Shown here one piece after another: positions 3,377 to 34,651 of a DNA stretch of 36,458 nt. The DNA is from a virus. The stretch's first letter is position 1. Each line of letters opens with the position of its first letter. The stretch lies in the IMG/VR virus record IMGVR_UViG_3300039456_000011, positions 1-36,458 of that record; one strand, 5' to 3'. A program made the position numbers and the translations under genes. The notes under the pieces are model-generated. The model made no database searches. It had not been told where the DNA came from and saw nothing but the letters and a program-made list of their open reading frames with translations.

Positions 3377-5492
3377 ACTCAGTACAGCAATGGCCCTAGC
3401 GAGCATGAATGCGGCGCAAGCATCCACCGCGCGCAATTATATCAACAGCCAAGGCGAGCTATTGCTGTACGGGATTATTGGCGACTGGTGGGACGGCCTC
3501 GACGCGTTTAGCGTAGTGCTCGAACTTGAACGCATGAACCCGACCGGCGACCTACACGTTCGCATACAGAGCGACGGCGGCAACTATCTTGAAGGCTTGG
3601 CAATTTACAACGCGCTAAAACGCACAGAACGCCGCGTAATCGTCACAATCGATGGATGGGCCGCAAGCATGGCCACGATTGTCGCCCTCGCTGGTGATGT
3701 CGTGCGTATGCCACAAAACGCATGGCAGTTTTTCCACTTTGCCGGTGGCGATGTATACGGAAACCACGAAGACCTACGCAGCGCCGCCGATCAGCTCGAA
3801 GCATTTAGCCAGCAAGCCGCTGATATTTACGCCGCCAAATCAGACTTAAGCGCTGATGAATGGCTCGCATTAATGCGCGGTAATACATGGTTTAACGCCA
3901 CAAAATGCCTAGAAATTGGGCTGATTGACGAAATCATAGACCCCATCGCCGCCGTGGCGCGAAAAATGAATTTTGCCGGTGACATGTTAGTACCCGTCGC
4001 CGTCATGGAATTAATGAAAGACCCCGAAACGCCGCAGCCTGTGGCCGATCACACCCCCGAAGAAACAGAGGAAGAAGACGTGAAAACAGCCAAAATGACC
4101 GCAGGCGCTCAAGTTCCTGCAACACCAGCGACCCCCGCCGCACCAGCAACCCCGTCACCCGCTGCCGCTGACATGCAAGCCCCAGCCGCAGAAATGCAGG
4201 CCGCCACCGCAGCCGCCGCAACAGCCGAGCGTACCCGACAAGCTGAATTACGTACCATCGCTGGCCAAGCACCGAGCGTCGTAACCGCTGAAATGCTTGC
4301 AGAATGGTGCGACGGTGAAATGACAGCAGATGCAGCCCGTACCGCCGTTTTAAAGCTGGTTGGTGAGCAATCACGCGAGCAAATGCCTAACGGCAGTAAT
4401 TCCGGCGGCAACGCGGCGAGTGCAAATCTACGTGCTGACATTACCGCCGCTGTATTAAATCGCGTTGCGCCAGGTGCAAACCGCTTGGAAGGCCCGAACG
4501 AATTCGCGCACATGTCACTGATGGACGTATGCCGCAGCGTTTTAAGCATTAATGGTGTGCGCACTAACGGCATGACGCCGATGCAAATCGCCGGTGCCGC
4601 TCTGCAATCGACCAGCGATCTACCCGCCGTATTTGCTGACGTAGCAAACAACGAGCTGGCCCGTGGTTATGCTGCCCGCCAACGCACGTTCACGCGTTTT
4701 GCAAACCGCCGCAATATGACAAACTTTAAGCCGCAAAATATCACGCGCTTAAGCGATGCACCTCAGTTGCTACCAAAAACAGAGCTTGGCGCGTATCAAA
4801 TCGGCCAGCTTACCGACAGCAAAGAAACACTCACGCTACAAACAAAAGGCCGCATGGTTAATTTGTCGCGTGAAATGATCATCAACGACGACATGGACGC
4901 ATTATCACGCCTACCGATGATGATGGGCGCGCAAGCCTCGCTTGCTGAAATTCGCATGATTTTTGGTTTATTGGCCAGCAACCCGACCATGGGCGAAACC
5001 GGAAAAACACTTTTCCATGCAGACCACAAAAACATTGCCACCGCTGCAGCGTTGTCGGTTGATTCATTAGGTGCATTGCGTGCGCTACTACGCAAACAAA
5101 AATCAAAAGCGGCGAAGGGTGAAACAGGTTACTCCCTAAATACACCACTCGATTTCTTGATCGTACCGGCGGCGCTTGAAACCGAAGCCCAAAAGATAAT
5201 CAGCCAAATTTCACCAACGAAGGCCGATGACGTTAACCCATTTGCCAATTTAGAGTTGATAGCCGAAGCGGTACTTGATGAAACCAGCGAAACGGCGTAT
5301 TTCGGCATTGGTTCAGCGTCACTGATTGACACCATCGAATACGGTTACCTTGATGGCCAAGAAGGTGCCTTCATCGATTCCGAAGTCGATTTCGACACCG
5401 ATGGTATTAAGATGAAAGTTCGCCACGACTTCGCCGCTGGCGTAGCTGATTATCGCGGTATGACTAAAAACGCGGGCGTCGCTCCTGGCTAA
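3366..5492 (+). CDS. ClpP-like prohead protease fused to major capsid protein
   Basis: One 708-residue reading frame holds the prohead maturation protease and the major capsid protein. Residues about 30-220 are a ClpP/S49-type serine protease: the nucleophile is in GWAASMATI (S101) and the histidine in AWQFFHF (H124), with NHEDLRSAADQL and GLIDEII following. Residues about 230-320 are an Ala/Pro/Gln-rich linker of scaffold type. From about 380 on is a Mu gpT-like capsid domain (LSREMIINDDMDALSRLP, GKTLFHADHKN, LDFLIVPAALE). The ATG at 3366 lies inside the end of the portal gene. A plausible internal GTG start at 4080 (residue 239) would release scaffold plus capsid without protease. Such fusions are known in some siphoviruses. 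Confidence 0.93.
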   Translation: MKNKLSTAMALASMNAAQASTARNYINSQGELLLYGIIGDWWDGLDAFSVVLELERMNPTGDLHVRIQSDGGNYLEGLAIYNALKRTERRVIVTIDGWAASMATIVALAGDVVRMPQNAWQFFHFAGGDVYGNHEDLRSAADQLEAFSQQAADIYAAKSDLSADEWLALMRGNTWFNATKCLEIGLIDEIIDPIAAVARKMNFAGDMLVPVAVMELMKDPETPQPVADHTPEETEEEDVKTAKMTAGAQVPATPATPAAPATPSPAAADMQAPAAEMQAATAAAATAERTRQAELRTIAGQAPSVVTAEMLAEWCDGEMTADAARTAVLKLVGEQSREQMPNGSNSGGNAASANLRADITAAVLNRVAPGANRLEGPNEFAHMSLMDVCRSVLSINGVRTNGMTPMQIAGAALQSTSDLPAVFADVANNELARGYAARQRTFTRFANRRNMTNFKPQNITRLSDAPQLLPKTELGAYQIGQLTDSKETLTLQTKGRMVNLSREMIINDDMDALSRLPMMMGAQASLAEIRMIFGLLASNPTMGETGKTLFHADHKNIATAAALSVDSLGALRALLRKQKSKAAKGETGYSLNTPLDFLIVPAALETEAQKIISQISPTKADDVNPFANLELIAEAVLDETSETAYFGIGSASLIDTIEYGYLDGQEGAFIDSEVDFDTDGIKMKVRHDFAAGVADYRGMTKNAGVAPG
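4068..4082 (+). promoter_or_regulatory. Possible internal ribosome binding site and GTG start within the protease-capsid gene
   Basis: GAGG at 4068-4071 is followed, after eight bases, by an in-frame GTG at 4080. Initiation here would give a 470-residue protein of linker plus capsid domain, analogous to lambda's nested Nu3 start inside gene C. A GAG/GAA-rich stretch can mimic a Shine-Dalgarno site by chance, so this is only suggestive. Confidence 0.4.
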
Positions 5493-18105: not shown

Positions 18106-18310
18106 GTGCATATTTTAGGTACACACAAAAATATATACATGCACAAAATATACATACACACCTACACCCTAAATATACATGTATATTTCGTTCCATTATA
18201 TACGTATATAATGGAACGAAATATACATGTATATTTTGGGTGTGTGTATGCTTTTGTGTGTGTTTTAAATATACATGCTTGCGTTGTGTGTCTTTATAGT
18301 GTACTTTTGT
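18106..18310. other. Extended protelomerase region with repeated AAATATACATG motifs
   Basis: This A/T-rich, non-coding stretch surrounds the telomere palindrome. AAATATACAT recurs at about 18147, 18171, 18219 and 18267, with a near copy at 18131. Outer segments rich in ACACAC on the left face TGTGTG on the right, so the inverted repeat continues imperfectly beyond the central 78 bp. The N15 tos site likewise has flanking inverted repeats outside telRL. Confidence 0.72.
18165..18242. other. Telomere resolution site (telRL-like palindrome)
   Basis: Two 39-base arms, 18165-18203 and 18204-18242, are perfect reverse complements except for one T-T pair (18170/18237). The centre reads CCATTATA (18193-18200), TACGTA, TATAATGG (18207-18214). 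N15 telRL has the same CCATTATA and TATAATGG blocks around a CGCGCG centre. The protelomerase gene starts 101 bases away. Cutting here and joining strands would give a linear plasmid with hairpin ends. Confidence 0.93.
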
Positions 18311-18342: not shown

Positions 18343-19926
18343 ATGGAAAATCAGAAAAAACGCGCAAGCCAAGGCACTGTCGACCTTGCCGCTGTTATCA
18401 GTGACACGATTGACCGTATTAAAAAAATAGATGGCCACGCTGATTGGGATCAGTCAGAAAAGACACGTAGGCATAAGGTTTTAGCGGAATCAGTTAAAAA
18501 CAAACTGCACGAAGATGGCCGCCGAAGCGATGAAAACAAGGTTTCGCTGGCAACCTATCGCCGTTATTTGACTGACGTTAGAAAAGCGATTACCGCCGAA
18601 AACATGCACCACCATAACCTAGAAAAAAAGTTGGATGTATTGGCGCGGCGGTATCCAAAACACAGCGCTGAATTGCTGGCTATAAAGCGCGGCAACATTA
18701 GCGACACGCGACTGGCACACAAGGCGGCGCTTGAGTCTCTAATCGACGAATCAGAGGCTTACAGTGACTTGAAAGCGATCATTATTGATCATGAAATCAT
18801 GCGTCACTTGTCTATGGCGTCCGCGCAAAAAACGAAACTATCAAACCAGCAGCAAGCGGCCCTTGAAGAAAAGAAACATAACGCTGTCGAAATTGACAAA
18901 GACTGGCTACTGGTTACGACAGAAAGCCTTTTAAAGCCTGATACAGACAGCCAGATCAGCTTTGCGCGCTTAGCGCTTGGTATCGCGTTTGCTACTGGTC
19001 GCCGTGCGATTGAAGTGCTTTATCAGGGCAACTTTGAAGCGGCTGGAAAATATGAGCTCACATTTTCAGGCTTTGCTAAAAAGCGCGGCGGTGCTGATTA
19101 CAGCAACAAAGCGCGAATTTATACCATCGTACCCGCCTCTGACGTGTTAGCCGCGGTTGAACTGCTACGCCAACAGCCAGAAATTGAAGCTATGCGTAAC
19201 GACTTTGGAAGCCTCCCAGAAGGTGAGCGTAACCGCGCGGTTAACCATCGCGCGGCGGCAAACCTAAACAACACCGCAAAACGCGTTTTTGGTGATGAAA
19301 CCCGCGTATTTCGCGACAGCCGCGCCGTATGGGCAAGGTTCGTTTTTGAAGAACATTTTCGCAAAGACCCGCGCTGGAAAAAATTAGACGAAGACGTGTT
19401 CTGGCACCAGCAACTAGGGCACGAAGACCTAGACACCCAGCAAGCGTACAAGCAATTTAAACTAATCGAAGTCGAGCGCGGAGGCGATCAAGACCGCCTT
19501 TCTGCAGTCAAAGCACTGGCCAGAAACCCAGAAGTTATGAAGCGTGGTGCATTACAAAAAATAAACGCCTGGGCGGTTTCAGTGCTCGAAAACGACCCTA
19601 CGGACAAAATCACACAGCATCGAATTATCAGCGAGCTAGGATCTGGCCGGGGCGTGATTAAAGACTGGCTAACACTTGCTGAAGATGCGTTAAACCTTGA
19701 TCCGGTGGCAAATCGCACCAAAAAACACGAAGAAAAGCCGCAAAGCAAAGAAGAAAGCAAACCAGCGGCCCAAATGGATAAACCGCGCATCCGCGCTACT
19801 AAAGACGGCGGCTGGTGGTTGGTGTCTATCGAGATTGGCGGCGCTGAATATGAATACACATACCACGCCGACGAATATGGCCGTGGTGATGCTATGGCCG
19901 CCGCATGGGCTGAGCACGCTGAATAA
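18343..19926 (+). CDS. telN: Protelomerase (telomere resolvase)
   Basis: Enzyme of 527 residues that cuts the replicated telomere palindrome and seals hairpin ends by a tyrosine-recombinase mechanism. Direct matches to what I recall of N15 TelN include TGRRAIEVLYQGNF with GKYELTFSGFAKKR, RVFRDSRAVWAR, DPRWKKLDEDVF and LGHEDLDTQQAYKQFKL. The expected catalytic set is present: Arg 220/221, Lys 246/247, Arg 327, His 360 and Tyr 369. A C-terminal domain (GGWWLVSIEIGGAEYEY) also has a TelN counterpart. It is shorter than TelN (631), mainly in the N-terminal part and the acidic linker. Start ATG with GAGGG upstream. It lies directly beside its likely target at 18165-18242. Confidence 0.97.
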   Translation: MENQKKRASQGTVDLAAVISDTIDRIKKIDGHADWDQSEKTRRHKVLAESVKNKLHEDGRRSDENKVSLATYRRYLTDVRKAITAENMHHHNLEKKLDVLARRYPKHSAELLAIKRGNISDTRLAHKAALESLIDESEAYSDLKAIIIDHEIMRHLSMASAQKTKLSNQQQAALEEKKHNAVEIDKDWLLVTTESLLKPDTDSQISFARLALGIAFATGRRAIEVLYQGNFEAAGKYELTFSGFAKKRGGADYSNKARIYTIVPASDVLAAVELLRQQPEIEAMRNDFGSLPEGERNRAVNHRAAANLNNTAKRVFGDETRVFRDSRAVWARFVFEEHFRKDPRWKKLDEDVFWHQQLGHEDLDTQQAYKQFKLIEVERGGDQDRLSAVKALARNPEVMKRGALQKINAWAVSVLENDPTDKITQHRIISELGSGRGVIKDWLTLAEDALNLDPVANRTKKHEEKPQSKEESKPAAQMDKPRIRATKDGGWWLVSIEIGGAEYEYTYHADEYGRGDAMAAAWAEHAE

Positions 19927-28064: not shown

Positions 28065-28685
28065 ATGTTGACAGAAGCCGGTAAAAACAATCTGAGAAGT
28101 TTTATATTTTCAGTGTTTTCAGTACATGCACCGTCTCGCAGCTTTGACTATGCCGCGATACGTGTGCAGTCGTCCGCGCCTGTGTCTGCCCCCATGCCTG
28201 TGACCATGTCACAACTCGAAAACAGGTCATACGTTGCCGCCATTCGCCAGCTATCAACCCCCGCCGCCGCGTGGGTACGTTGGGCGTATGCGAGCCGACA
28301 CCCAGACGCCGCCAATCACGATATGGAAATCGTCGCGCGGAATCTATGGGATGACTACAGCAGCACCCTGCACAGCACCACCGAAGAACAGCGCGAACGA
28401 ATTATGCGACTTGTACAGCCAGCAATGGAGCAAGTCGCTTTCGTTCAGCGTTTAGGAAAAAAGCGATATAGCCGCGCCGATTTGTACGATCTAACGGGCT
28501 GCCCTGAAAGCTCATGGCAGCGCGATATGCAACCGCATTGGAAAGCACTCCAAGACAATCTAAAAAACCAAGACAACGCCGCCTTACGCCGCCTAAGCCT
28601 GATTTTTGACATTGTCGATCAACGTAAAGCGCTTGGGAGCGCTAACGAAATTGCCGCAGATGCACAAATGAGCATTGCGGTTTAA
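28065..28685 (+). CDS. Right-arm early gene, unknown, possible antiterminator
   Basis: Protein of 206 residues with AGGGGG five bases before the ATG. It contains TPAAAWVRWAYASRHPDAANHD and ARNLWDDYSS, then KKRYSRADLYDLTGCPESSWQRD, which could be a helix-turn-helix. The Trp/Arg-rich WVRWAY segment is reminiscent of late antiterminators, and the genome otherwise lacks an obvious Q, but this is weak. It runs in step with the gene before it (13-base gap). Confidence 0.6.
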   Translation: MLTEAGKNNLRSFIFSVFSVHAPSRSFDYAAIRVQSSAPVSAPMPVTMSQLENRSYVAAIRQLSTPAAAWVRWAYASRHPDAANHDMEIVARNLWDDYSSTLHSTTEEQRERIMRLVQPAMEQVAFVQRLGKKRYSRADLYDLTGCPESSWQRDMQPHWKALQDNLKNQDNAALRRLSLIFDIVDQRKALGSANEIAADAQMSIAV

Positions 28686-28744: not shown

Positions 28745-30145
28745 ATGCTTTTAAAACAACTCACGTCATATCAGATCGAAATGCCTACCACGGCCACTGA
28801 CCAGCCAATCGCGCTGGTGCCAACCGAATGGCGCGATCATATCGAACAAAGCGCTCAATCCATGCGCATACGCCCGCTAACGGCGCTACAGCAAACTGGC
28901 TCAGGCTTTGAGCCGCCGTTGCATAAAATAAACAGTGAATACGTTGTGGCCGCCGATTCGTGCGGGTTGTTGTTGCTGTGTTACCGGATTGATACCAAGG
29001 CGATCAACGCCGCCGGCATTAAAGAATCGGTCGAAGCGAAGGCCAAAATCATCGAGCACGAAGAAGGCCGTCGCGTTCGCAAATTAGAGCGCGAAGCAAT
29101 ACACGACGATTTTGTGATAAAAGCCCTTCCGCACATCCAGCCCACGCCAAAACGCATTTTAATATTGCTCGACCTACGCCGGTACCGCGTTTTGATTGGC
29201 ACAAAGTCAGAAGACTTGGCGACGACATTACGCCGCTTATTAGCAGAACACATCGTGCCAGGTTACGAAGTGGAAACCGCTGACGAAAAAGAAACACGCC
29301 GCCCGCGCTTCATCGTCGATAGCAACTGCAAAGGCGACCCGCGCGAACATTACCGACAGTGGATGATTCAAGGTGTTCAAGGCCTGCAACTGCATGACGG
29401 CGCATACCTTGAAAAAGAAGCCTCAAAAAACATCATCGTGACCGGCCAAGCTAATGACGCCCAGGTTATCACCGATGCATTAGATGACGGTTACCAGCCG
29501 TTTCAGGTGTCTGTCAGTGTGATGAATACCGAAGCCGACAGCGTTATCGCTGACGTTGTGCTTGATCGTTTCGGGCAATACACGGCAATACGTATCCCCG
29601 GCCATCTTGAAATCATCAAAAGCACCCACGAAGACGAAAAAGAAGCCGCGCTGGCCGACCTACACGCGAACATGGTGCTCACAGCAGGCACGGCGCACGA
29701 CGTAGAACACGCAGTAAAAGTGGCATTTGGTGACCAGCTTGAAATCGAAGGCATATTAAAAAAAGCACTTGATATGCAGCGAACCGCAATTATTGGAACC
29801 TCTCTAATTTCTAAAGTGATGGCTACCGCGTCTTTAAATATGCCAACTGATTCAACCCAGACCATGACATACAAAGTCGGTCAAGGATCAGAGCCAATCG
29901 CCGCCCATCCTGATGTGATCGAAGTTAATGTTCCGGCTCTAGATGATGAACTTTATCAGAGTGTTCGGAGGTTCGTTGTTGAAAACCAAAAATGTTCAAT
30001 TTCCGGAATTCAGCGCAATTTCAAACTTGGTTACAACCACGCCGCGCGATTAGTTGACGAACTTGAAAGTTGGGGGGTGGTAACGCCGCCTGACAGTTAT
30101 GGACACCGAGACGTTTTAGATAAAAAACCAGAAGGCATTTCTTAA
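28745..30145 (+). CDS. RdgC-like protein fused to an FtsK gamma winged-helix domain
   Basis: Protein of 466 residues. Residues 1 to about 290 follow the plan of RdgC, a ring-shaped DNA-binding protein that limits RecA: MLLKQLTSYQI at the start, VEAKAKIIEHEEGRRVRKLERE followed by ALPHIQP (RdgC has an acidic-basic helix then LLPRAF), ILILLDLRRYRVLIGT and QGLQLHDGAYL. Residues about 400-459 (ELYQSVRRFVVENQKCSISG, GYNHAARLVDELESWGVV, HRDVL) are a clear FtsK gamma domain, the module that reads KOPS on chromosomes. No FtsK motor is present. GGGAAGAAG precedes the ATG. It precedes ssb and follows octad array 3. Confidence 0.84.
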   Translation: MLLKQLTSYQIEMPTTATDQPIALVPTEWRDHIEQSAQSMRIRPLTALQQTGSGFEPPLHKINSEYVVAADSCGLLLLCYRIDTKAINAAGIKESVEAKAKIIEHEEGRRVRKLEREAIHDDFVIKALPHIQPTPKRILILLDLRRYRVLIGTKSEDLATTLRRLLAEHIVPGYEVETADEKETRRPRFIVDSNCKGDPREHYRQWMIQGVQGLQLHDGAYLEKEASKNIIVTGQANDAQVITDALDDGYQPFQVSVSVMNTEADSVIADVVLDRFGQYTAIRIPGHLEIIKSTHEDEKEAALADLHANMVLTAGTAHDVEHAVKVAFGDQLEIEGILKKALDMQRTAIIGTSLISKVMATASLNMPTDSTQTMTYKVGQGSEPIAAHPDVIEVNVPALDDELYQSVRRFVVENQKCSISGIQRNFKLGYNHAARLVDELESWGVVTPPDSYGHRDVLDKKPEGIS

Positions 30146-31685: not shown

Positions 31686-31919
31686 ATGGAATCAATTATT
31701 ATATTTTCTGCAATAATTGGTGTGATTATTATTGCCGCGATTTTTGGCTTAGCCGTAGGAATTAAAATCGTGGCGATATGTATGGTCGAGGCAACAGGTT
31801 ACTGGTTGCTACCAAAAAACCACTGCACATACCCAGCCTGTAACTGCCCATTTGACGCCCCGGCAGATCCGAACTGGTGCGCCCGTGGATATCCCCACAA
31901 AAAGGCTGAATCAAAATGA
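31686..31919 (+). CDS. Small membrane protein
   Basis: Protein of 77 residues with a hydrophobic N-terminus (ESIIIFSAIIGVIIIAAIFGL, then VGIKIVAICMVEA) making one or two membrane segments, then a Cys-rich tail with CTYPACNC and WC. AGGG precedes the ATG. It overlaps the next start (ATGA). Confidence 0.66.
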   Translation: MESIIIFSAIIGVIIIAAIFGLAVGIKIVAICMVEATGYWLLPKNHCTYPACNCPFDAPADPNWCARGYPHKKAESK

Positions 31920-32254
31920 ACAACGCCATGGCTAAGCTTGCCGAAAAATTAGGCATTGATCACGCAAAAATGACGCGCGAAAAAATGGCTGAAGTAGTCA
32001 GCGAAAAAGCACTGTCTCACATCATTGAATTAGAGCGTGTGAACCATATACCCGCCGCTGGAGAGGTGTTTAGCGTGATAGCGGGAAAATATGAAGGTAA
32101 TGAAATAAATTGCAAATATAGCGACGAATTCCCAACGCTGGACGAGTCGATCTCTGCCTACGACCAGGTGGACACTTATCCGTGGGCATACATCAAATAC
32201 AAGGGGCGAGTGCTCGATGTGTTTTGGAACGGCTACGACCCCTTTAAGAGGTAG
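31916..32254 (+). CDS. Unknown protein at the head of the cassette cluster
   Basis: Protein of 112 residues (LAEKLGIDHAKMTREKMAEVV, then GEVFSVIAGKYEGNEINC, PWAYIKYKGRVLDVFWNGYDPF). The stop is three bases before the first attC-like site, as in integron cassettes, but the 5' end overlaps the previous gene. It may be a phage gene or a cassette whose left boundary has decayed. No family recognised. Confidence 0.66.
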   Translation: MNNAMAKLAEKLGIDHAKMTREKMAEVVSEKALSHIIELERVNHIPAAGEVFSVIAGKYEGNEINCKYSDEFPTLDESISAYDQVDTYPWAYIKYKGRVLDVFWNGYDPFKR

Positions 32255-32257
32255 GCA

Positions 32258-32312
32258 TATAACCACAAGCTAACGGGCTGCGAAGCAATCCACATTTGAG
32301 CGCCTTGTTATT
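32258..32312 (+). other. attC-like site 1
   Basis: Bounded by TATAAC (32258) and GTTATT (32307), imperfectly self-complementary over 55 bases. It contains AACGGGCTG (32272) and TCCACATTTGA (32289), which recur in site 4. Confidence 0.74.
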
Positions 32313-32328
32313 GCGCGGGAGGTTAAAG

Positions 32329-32502
32329 ATGGAATGGATTTTAACAATATGTACATGGGGGGTTCTTGGAATCTGCTCGCAACACATAGAGCATGGCTAC
32401 AAAGACCAACAGGACTGCTATAAGGCAATGAACTCGCTTTATGAGGCTAAAGGCGAGGATGTGTTTTTATATATAACTTGCAAGCCAAACCCGGCGCCAT
32501 AA
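32329..32502 (+). CDS. Cassette gene, small membrane or secreted protein (57 residues)
   Basis: Starts at ATG 32329 with GGAGG six bases upstream. MEWILTICTWGVLGICSQHIE gives a short hydrophobic N-terminus that could be a signal or anchor, followed by YKDQQDCYKAMNSLYEA and YITCKPNPAP with three cysteines. The stop TAA lies inside the next attC's CATAAC box, a hallmark of integron gene cassettes. Function unknown. Confidence 0.68.
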   Translation: MEWILTICTWGVLGICSQHIEHGYKDQQDCYKAMNSLYEAKGEDVFLYITCKPNPAP

Positions 32503-32556
32503 CCCAGAGCTTTGCTTTTGAGCGACAGCGAAATAAGACAACAGTGAATTGTTATA
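32498..32556 (+). other. attC-like site 2
   Basis: Bounded by CATAAC (32498) and GTTATA (32551). The inner boxes are less clear than in the others, and the hairpin is weaker. Confidence 0.6.
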
Positions 32557-32564
32557 GGTGACAC

Positions 32565-32735
32565 ATGGCTGAGATTGAAAAAAAAATCGAAATAGCTAAA
32601 AAAATAATCGAACTACTCAAGAAATACGATGATGTCGAGCTTCATAAGTTTGATGACGGCGGCGTGATTGATTTTCCCGGAGTAAGTATAAGCTTTGAAT
32701 TTGACAAGGTGACTGATACCGAAGTGTCGCTATAA
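32565..32735 (+). CDS. Cassette gene, 56-residue acidic protein
   Basis: A short gene: a charged helix (AEIEKKIEIAKKIIELLKKY) then strands (VIDFPGVSISFEFDKV). The ATG follows AGGTG, which overlaps the R' box of site 2. The stop TAA is inside the TATAAC of site 3. Function unknown. Confidence 0.68.
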   Translation: MAEIEKKIEIAKKIIELLKKYDDVELHKFDDGGVIDFPGVSISFEFDKVTDTEVSL

Positions 32736-32789
32736 CCCGGCGTTAATGGGCGGCGCTCCAGCGCCGTCCAGATTGCACGCTTTGTTATA
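32731..32789 (+). other. attC-like site 3
   Basis: Bounded by TATAAC (32731) and GTTATA (32784). GGCGGCGC pairs with GCGCCGTCC around TCCA, with unpaired spacers and extra-helical bases nearer the ends, the attC folding pattern. Confidence 0.8.
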
Positions 32790-32917
32790 AATCTTGAAAG
32801 GGGAATCCGTAGGCTGATACGGGCAGGGCTAAGACTGCGGGCAAAGGGCCAAAAACTTAGCTGACACCGACGCGCCATGCTGGGGATCAGTGCCAGCCCC
32901 CTTTCAAGATTTATAAC
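32784..32917. ncRNA. Non-coding cassette, candidate structured RNA
   Basis: Perfect 20-base inverted repeats (32784-32803 and 32898-32917) enclose 94 bases with no reading frame. Inside, CCGTA pairs with TACGG (about 32806-32823), GCTAAG with CTTAGC (about 32829-32863) and GCTGG with CCAGC (about 32879-32897), giving a three-arm fold on a long stem. I do not recognise an RNA class. A miniature inverted-repeat element is the main alternative. Confidence 0.55.
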
Positions 32918-32973
32918 CAAGATTTTAACGGGCTGGAGCGACAGCGACAGTCCACTTTGAAGGAATTGTTATA
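32912..32973 (+). other. attC-like site 4
   Basis: Bounded by TATAAC (32912) and GTTATA (32968). AACGGGCTG (32927) and TCCACTTTGA (32951) match site 1. The next gene's ATG uses the last A of the R' box. Confidence 0.78.
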
Positions 32974-33167
32974 TGGCTAGTCGTCGTGAAATAAAGCTTC
33001 AAAATCAAGTTCTCTTTCGTGATGAGAAGATATCCGATCTTAAAAATAGATCGGATAAAGCTTGGGAAATCATCAAGGACATATTTGATAAACACGAAGC
33101 TGGTGATGATATCGACAGCAAGCTAGCAAAAGCACTAAACATACTGGCCGAACACGAAGCCATATAA
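32973..33167 (+). CDS. Cassette gene, 64-residue helical protein
   Basis: Highly charged and helical (SRREIKLQNQVLFRDEKISDL, DKAWEIIKDIFDKHEAGDD), likely coiled-coil. AAGGA inside attC site 4 serves as ribosome site. The stop TAA is inside the TATAAC of site 5. No family recognised. Confidence 0.72.
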   Translation: MASRREIKLQNQVLFRDEKISDLKNRSDKAWEIIKDIFDKHEAGDDIDSKLAKALNILAEHEAI

Positions 33168-33218
33168 CAAAGAGTTCGCGCGTCGAGGTACGAGATCGAC
33201 GCGTAACGAGGTGTTATT
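33163..33218 (+). other. attC-like site 5
   Basis: Bounded by TATAAC (33163) and GTTATT (33213). GCGTCGA (left) pairs with TCGACGC (right) around a short loop, with two extra-helical bases on the left arm and unpaired spacers outside. Confidence 0.78.
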
Positions 33219-33230
33219 TAAGGGGGTTAA

Positions 33231-33503
33231 ATGTCAAAAGATCTTCATCTAAATCTAAAGGGCTGCTATTTCGATGATATAGCAGCAAAAAAAAAGCCCT
33301 TTGAATATCGCTTAAAAAATGAATATTGGCGTCGTCGATTAGAGGGCCGACATTACGACAATATACATATTAAAAAAGGATATCCGAAGGCCACCGACAC
33401 AAGCAGAATAATCACAAAGCCATACCGTGGTTATGAAGAGCAAACAATCACACACCCGCACTTTGGGCCTTTACCGGTTGAGGTTTATGCAATCCATGTC
33501 TAA
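33231..33503 (+). CDS. ASCH-domain protein
   Basis: Protein of 90 residues that fits the ASCH (PUA-like) family: LHLNLKGCYFDDIAAKKKPFEYRL, YWRRRLEGRHYDNIHIKKGYP and THPHFGPLPVEVYAIHV. Such domains bind RNA or modified nucleotides. AAGGGGG lies four bases upstream of the ATG. It follows attC site 5 but no attC is seen after it. Confidence 0.85.
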   Translation: MSKDLHLNLKGCYFDDIAAKKKPFEYRLKNEYWRRRLEGRHYDNIHIKKGYPKATDTSRIITKPYRGYEEQTITHPHFGPLPVEVYAIHV

Positions 33504-33905: not shown

Positions 33906-34220
33906 ATGCCTGAGAAAGAAACAATAGACACGACAGTCGGTTTTTGGGCTGACAATCATTTGTATATTTCCATGGCGGTTTTTATGTCTGTAGTAATTGC
34001 TTATAGATTAGTAGGCACGGAGCCAATCAATATTCGCCGCTTAGCTGGCGAATTGATTCTGGCTTTAGTTGGCGCGGGTGTATTTCACGCGCTAGGCCTT
34101 CTTAAGGGGCTTTCTGGCCCTGAGTATTGGCTAATGATATTTCTTGCTGCCATGGGCGGTTTACGCTCGATTGAGTGGTCTTTAAAAGTGTTTATTGCGT
34201 TAAAAAAGGTGTCTATCTAA
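33906..34220 (+). CDS. Holin
   Basis: Membrane protein of 104 residues with three hydrophobic segments (about 18-36, 47-66 and 72-88; ISMAVFMSVVIAYRLV, ELILALVGAGVFHALGLL, YWLMIFLAAMGGL) and a basic C-terminus. It is directly followed by the endolysin (TAATG overlap). It would open the inner membrane at the end of the lytic cycle. The family cannot be named with confidence. Confidence 0.83.
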   Translation: MPEKETIDTTVGFWADNHLYISMAVFMSVVIAYRLVGTEPINIRRLAGELILALVGAGVFHALGLLKGLSGPEYWLMIFLAAMGGLRSIEWSLKVFIALKKVSI

Positions 34221-34651
34221 TGTCAGGTTTAAAGTTTGGTAAACGTTCTGAATCAAACTTACAGACCTGTGATGACCGCCTTCAGCGAATAGCGCGCCGG
34301 GTGTTGTCTTATGGTGTGACTGATTTTTCAGTAATTGAAGGCCATCGCCCGTTAGAACGCCAGCTATCCCTTTATCACGCCGGTAAGAGTCAGATCGACG
34401 GCGTAAACAAAAAGGGTAAGCATAACGAATACCCAAGCCACGCCATCGACGTTTTGCCATATCCTGCCGTCGTTAACGGCGTCGACGTATGGGCCGATAA
34501 ACAGCGCTTTTGTGTATTAGCCGGTTTATTTATGGCCGCCGCCGTAGAAGAAGGCGTGGCTATCCGGTGGGGCGGCGATTGGGATAACGATGGCAATAAC
34601 GCTGACAGCAACTTTAACGACTTACCACACATCGAATTAATAGAGGCCTAA
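34220..34651 (+). CDS. Endolysin, M15 metallopeptidase family
   Basis: Protein of 143 residues that cuts the peptide bridges of peptidoglycan. The zinc ligands fit the VanY/M15 family: YPSHAIDVLPY (H74, D77) and DLPHIEL (H137), with SVIEGHRPLERQLSLYHAGKS and IRWGGDWDNDG as in L-Ala-D-Glu endopeptidase endolysins. There is no signal peptide, so it relies on the holin. The ATG at 34220 overlaps the holin stop by one base. Confidence 0.93.
   Translation: MSGLKFGKRSESNLQTCDDRLQRIARRVLSYGVTDFSVIEGHRPLERQLSLYHAGKSQIDGVNKKGKHNEYPSHAIDVLPYPAVVNGVDVWADKQRFCVLAGLFMAAAVEEGVAIRWGGDWDNDGNNADSNFNDLPHIELIEA

Follow-up and report, generated by a model that had tools for sequence, protein, structure and literature searches.

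Integron-type cassettes with inverted attC polarity in a telomere phage and signs of cassette exchange among temperate phages

Whether temperate phages carry genuine integron cassettes, and whether such cassettes move from one phage to another, is the question raised by a block at positions 32257-33219 of the IMG/VR record IMGVR_UViG_3300039456_000011, whose 36,458 nucleotides constitute the window analyzed here. In this block five short sites (s1-s5) set apart three small ORFs and a stretch that does not code for protein. An earlier note, made from the sequence alone, had described it as an integron cassette cluster lacking an integrase inside a temperate telomere phage, and the features on which that description relied, namely the five sites with their boxes and inner motifs, the stop codons within the left boxes and the start codons past the right ones, are all present in the sequence.

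The window belongs with the telomere phages, as it encodes a protelomerase with a ResT/TelK catalytic domain (18343-19926, plus strand; PF16684, E 2.1e-24), whose closest counterparts are those of phiHAP-1 and VP882 at 42-46% identity, next to a near-perfect palindrome that by its sequence would be the telomere (18164-18245). Matches to Rfam miRNAs in the window were caused by this palindrome and were discarded as false. A late antiterminator Q-like gene (28065-28685, plus strand; PF06323, E 9.8e-12) lies upstream of the array region and an endolysin-like lysis gene (34175-34651, plus strand; phrog_465, E 4.4e-36) downstream. Directly to the left of the array is a chimeric gene (31916-32254, plus strand), which over its first 99 bp matches a gene of prophage L004 at 82% identity and is unrelated to it in the remainder, and the right flank is formed by a phage gene matching phrog_625 (33231-33503, plus strand; E 2.6e-31). 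The ORF at 28745-30145 fuses an RdgC-like domain with a DNA-reading domain of the FtsK gamma type, a pairing that is unusual for a telomere phage. No match to the integron integrase model TIGR02249 was found in the window record, as the earlier note had stated, and with neither an IntI nor an identified attI the locus is not a complete integron. Since protelomerase and telomere palindrome are present and the integron integrase is absent, the block is best read as a CALIN and its carrier as a telomere phage of the phiHAP-1/VP882 kind, and we consider this reading, taken together with the mechanism proposed below, quite probable.

Folding alone was unimpressive, s1, s2 and s4 folding weakly (about -3 to -4.5 kcal/mol) and some sites folding well on both strands, and for this reason relatives of the sites were sought. 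A motif scan of IMG/VR returned a single true relative among random matches, the integrase-type prophage L009 with its six-site array, and further arrays were found in the sister or related prophages L004/L034, L032/L035, L036 and L037, in a Mu-like prophage of an isolate genome (L016) and in another phage with a different gene context (L121). A search for related loci by means of the protelomerase found none, and comparison of the block with phages and plasmids (megablast, blastn) gave no relative except an RNA element in PY54 and P840.

Two covariance models were used to evaluate the sites. R2 was derived from 21 sites of five phages (L004, L009, L035, L036 and L037) with the window excluded, while R1 was derived from 21 attCs adjoining integron integrases in sampled Gammaproteobacteria, their orientation being set by the IntI. 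On both strands of the whole 36 kb, R2 recovered s1-s4, each of them on the minus strand, and gave no further match with an E value below 0.2. The first site of the array, s1 (32257-32313; E 5.4e-5), is 92% identical over 65 bp to the first site of L009, s2 (32497-32557; E 4.5e-12) is 95% identical to the first site of L032/L035, s3 (32730-32790; E 3.7e-10) is 98% identical to the last site of L036, and s4 (32911-32974; E 1.7e-10) is 89% identical to the second site of L009. The covariance-model search that the earlier note had proposed therefore came out in its favor, with four sites found by a window-independent model at E between 5e-5 and 5e-12, and these matches, together with PF16684 and the palindrome, bear out its description of an integron-type cluster without integrase in a telomere phage.

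The arrays close with two types of terminal site. The one in the window, s5 (33162-33219; R2 E 0.22), represents a separate terminal type that also closes the arrays of L009, L032/L035 (array 1) and L037, and is 97-98% identical to the terminal sites of L009 and L032 and 88% to that of L037. Its strand is ambiguous, R1 giving 9.8 bits on minus vs. 7.3 on plus and R2 matching on plus; R1 gave no support to an early idea that s5 is opposite in orientation to s1-s4.

The specificity of R1 was high, all 37 matches in ten host control loci falling on the expected strand. R1 also matched the phage arrays (best E 7e-5 and 0.003), with the window sites weak when taken singly (best E 0.43), and reciprocally R2 matched host attCs in canonical orientation in nine cases out of nine. 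The block hence contains, by structure model, at least two attC sites close together (four by R2, with a fifth of terminal type), in agreement with the attCs of independently found genuine integrons. Judged on these matches, all five are genuine attC-type sites of integrons, far beyond chance, and the phage sites constitute a distinct AT-rich subtype of attC.

An ORF co-directional with its attC is usual for cassettes without being a defining trait. The earlier note had considered the gene layout to be as in true cassettes; on this point it has to be corrected, the attCs being inverted relative to the ORFs. When the longest ORF between neighboring sites was chosen automatically, host arrays showed 44 ORFs in the same orientation as the attC and 3 in the opposite one (3/47), whereas in phage arrays 27 of 29 were opposite, including all three ORFs of the window, and 2 were the same. 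In each of the two exceptions a plausible forward ORF can be read that the automatic choice overlooked. None of the 13 R1 matches within phage arrays was on the ORF strand, all of them falling on the opposite one, and an anchored weight matrix, correct for 48 of 55 held-out host sites, agreed on the polarity of nearly every genuine site. Measured against host attCs whose orientation was set by the IntI, phage attCs thus lie antisense to their genes. In the published phage TJE1, R1 located three attCs on the ORF strand, the canonical layout. In phage PH101 (L119 25920-27988; KR534323 about 75919-77987), R1 placed four attCs opposite to the annotated ORFs.

As a consequence of this inversion, the cassette units are delimited by the left boxes and not by the right ones. 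A shared unit consists of a site and the ORF that follows, whereas canonical polarity predicts an ORF and the site that follows, and the units of 184-245 bp previously obtained by cutting at G/TT, which used the wrong box, must therefore shift: measured from left box to left box, the units of the window are 240, 233, 181 and 251 bp long. Few families were recognized among cassette ORFs with Pfam and PHROG. In the window, ORF A (32329-32502, plus strand; 57 aa), with its stop codon within the box of the next site, had no PHROG match and a Pfam match below threshold only, ORF B (32565-32735, plus strand; 56 aa) matched no Pfam or PHROG family, and ORF C (32973-33167, plus strand; 64 aa) had only a weak match to phrog_5080 (E 0.025). 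Most cassette genes present a ribosome-binding site just past the right box and a stop in the next left box, and they are probably real in the rightward direction.

Sites are 77-98% identical across phages whose cassette genes differ. L036 and L037, 91-97% identical in their flanks, have arrays with one cassette in common, and L004 and L009, 91-96% identical in their flanks, have arrays without any common gene; in the latter pair the identity of the right flank begins at the GTTATT box, and the terminal sites differ exactly at the right GTT box. The window has sites and an RNA in common with other phages and no cassette genes. Two cassettes are shared elsewhere, one of 228 bp and 98.7% identity between L016 (1373-1600) and L121, the other of 241 bp and 98.3% identity between L036 (6750-6990) and L037. 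Both span from TAAC to TAAC, with unrelated sites beyond the right TAAC, so that exchange at the GTT/AAC core is seen in these two cassettes and not in those of the window. Because near-identical phages differ in their cassettes and near-identical cassettes are common to different phages, cassettes have passed between phages, and unrelated temperate phages apparently take their plug-in genes from one pool. Fixation of the same genes in all related phages, the outcome that the earlier note had named as adverse to its reading, is contradicted by the different cassettes of sister phages.

The copies of the shared cassettes, identical otherwise, differ by 3-4 changes clustered inside the attC, as if this were a hot spot of mutation or conversion. 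Two prophages have a second small array at their right end (L034 8310-8961; L035 8252-8643). In L034 it directly precedes a host tRNA-His/Arg/Pro cluster, and the 3' part of the tRNA-His is shared, which is probably the attachment site.

The non-coding cassette of the window corresponds to a structured RNA (32780-32921, plus strand), whose conserved core occupies about 32797-32903. The element is closed by an inverted repeat of 24 bp (32780-32803/32898-32921) and devoid of any plausible cassette ORF. Its counterparts are a stretch preceding the holin in the telomere phages PY54 and P840 (75% identity), a stretch of L016 behind a Mor-like gene (84% identity) and a relative behind a Q-like gene in the PY54-like L017, the names Mor and Q being read from translations. 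Homologues measure roughly 100 nt (L016 2986-3093; L014 4001-4100; L015 4001-4100; L017 about 4038-4158). In a consensus of five sequences, three of them close relatives, 12 of 28 pairs have changes on both sides; no family was found in Rfam. Since the element is repeatedly placed before late or lysis genes, recurring near late regulators or lysis genes in PY54/P840, the Mu-like phage and the window, it may be a leader of the late operon or a small RNA belonging to it.

How could these units move? We propose that a cassette unit extends from one TAAC box to the next and comprises an attC followed by an ORF or an RNA, and that an integron integrase would act in trans on folded single-stranded attCs, so that cassettes would be gained, lost or swapped at the AAC/GTT core. 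With the attC antisense to the gene, the TAA of the next box would supply the stop codon, and the genes would be co-directional with the rightward operon of the phage; inverted polarity may therefore ensure that the crossover box always provides a TAA stop and that the gene is read along with the operon of the phage. Sequence comparison shows the identity of the sites, their inverted polarity, their sharing across phages and the junctions at the AAC/GTT box, and an integron integrase in trans is the most likely agent of cassette movement. The enzyme would be a host-supplied IntI, the cassettes would be transcribed from the phage operon, and the cargo genes are presumably beneficial.

A host source was sought in several ways. 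The sister phage records examined contained no IntI, and a search of 369 sampled Gammaproteobacteria with R2 and a pattern found no integron with this site type. Scanning genome_contigs with the s1/s4 motif gave 12 matches, and none of those inspected lay in an array, their surroundings being metK-like or otherwise unrelated sequence. The tRNA cluster flanking L034 led to a nearest genome with 83% identity, whose family yielded one generic, canonical attC only. Absence of a host array is weak evidence, because the sampled genomes cover a small part of the class. The earlier suggestion that the phage may carry cassettes stands as regards exchange between phages, which the sequences support; its general idea had already been published (PMC9892861), and its chromosomal side found no counterpart, no chromosomal integron with these sites having been found in these searches.

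Several points count against our explanation: the weak R1 scores of the window sites, the searches of host genomes that yielded neither an integron nor an IntI associated with such sites, the terminal sites of L004 and L009 that differ exactly at the right GTT box, the ambiguous s5, and the two shared cassettes, neither of which involves the window. The 3-4 changes inside the attC of shared cassettes count against a simple transfer by IntI, which does not predict them. The rival reading of ordinary phage mosaicism takes the repeats as dispersed intergenic hairpins of roughly 60 bp serving as short homologies for phage or host recombinases, with no integron integrase involved. In its favor, sites 77-98% alike across phages suffice for short-homology recombination, the shared cassettes start within alike sites and have changes inside the site, and searches of the phages yielded no IntI. 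Homologous recombination cannot, however, choose the right junctions of the two shared cassettes, which lie at TAAC between unrelated site sequences; the sites match an independent host attC model (R1), and R2 finds host attCs in the correct orientation. We regard mosaicism as unlikely.

Slightly less likely still is that a phage captured part of the chromosomal integron of one host and that this part is now frozen and inactive, although phages with captured pieces of Vibrio chromosomal integrons have been described (Qi 2023, PMC9892861) and the site types are shared as they would be within one host lineage. Sister phages differ in cassettes despite 91-97% identical flanks, identical cassettes occur in unrelated phages, and chromosomal ORFs are co-directional with the attC while phage ones are not. 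It is very improbable that the sites act as hairpins of the mRNA, punctuating an operon or stabilizing RNA, and resemble attCs in appearance only: they do lie between genes of one operon, where they would be transcribed as hairpins, and some fold well on both strands, but s1, s2 and s4 fold weakly and yet keep the attC boxes, spacing and unpaired-base signature.

Extending the preferred reading of integrase-mediated exchange, we lean, with some reserve, toward the view that telomere phages, Mu-like transposing phages and chromosomally integrating temperate phages may share a dedicated pool of miniature cassettes with inverted attCs, a phage-adapted type in which the box gives the stop, the phage operon gives expression, integrases act in trans and non-coding RNA cassettes are included. 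The arrays described here go further than the isolated reports of attCs in phages, in that they give evidence of cassettes actually travelling between phages that are unrelated. The polarity rule departs from the standard layout, and cassettes may be wrongly delimited as a result, as cutting at the right GTT gives wrong units. If these findings are confirmed, site-specific recombination can exchange the moron regions of phages, and integron integrases take part in phage evolution.

Among known systems, phiHAP-1/VP882 (Hapunavirus) and PY54 resemble the window in protelomerase, RepA-like gene and order of repressor and Q, and PY54 and P840 also in the RNA element; they differ from it in that phiHAP-1, VP882 and the right-hand 8-12 kb of PY54 and P840 gave no R1 or R2 match. 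With the sedentary chromosomal integrons of Gammaproteobacteria the phage arrays share box sequence, spacing, the TAACAA..TCAA..GGAC signature and the attC hairpin plan, and they differ in having no intI, ORFs antisense to the attC and small cassettes (about 180-250 bp in the window, 180-430 bp for most others and about 790 bp for one). Closest in kind are the published phage CALINs of TJE1, PH101 and P12002L (Qi et al., 2023, PMC9892861), in which phage genomes likewise carry arrays of attCs but no IntI, and five of six phage attCs tested there recombined with attI1 through IntI1. PH101 is in that work among the arrays of most typical structure and its opposite polarity is not remarked; swapping between sister phages, a cross-phage pool or a consistent inverted polarity are not reported in it, and a search of the open-access literature turned up no description of either a systematic inversion of polarity or a cassette pool common to several phages. 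What the present arrays add to published work is the sharing and exchange of cassettes among phages, the inverted polarity, and a structured RNA cassette without an Rfam family.
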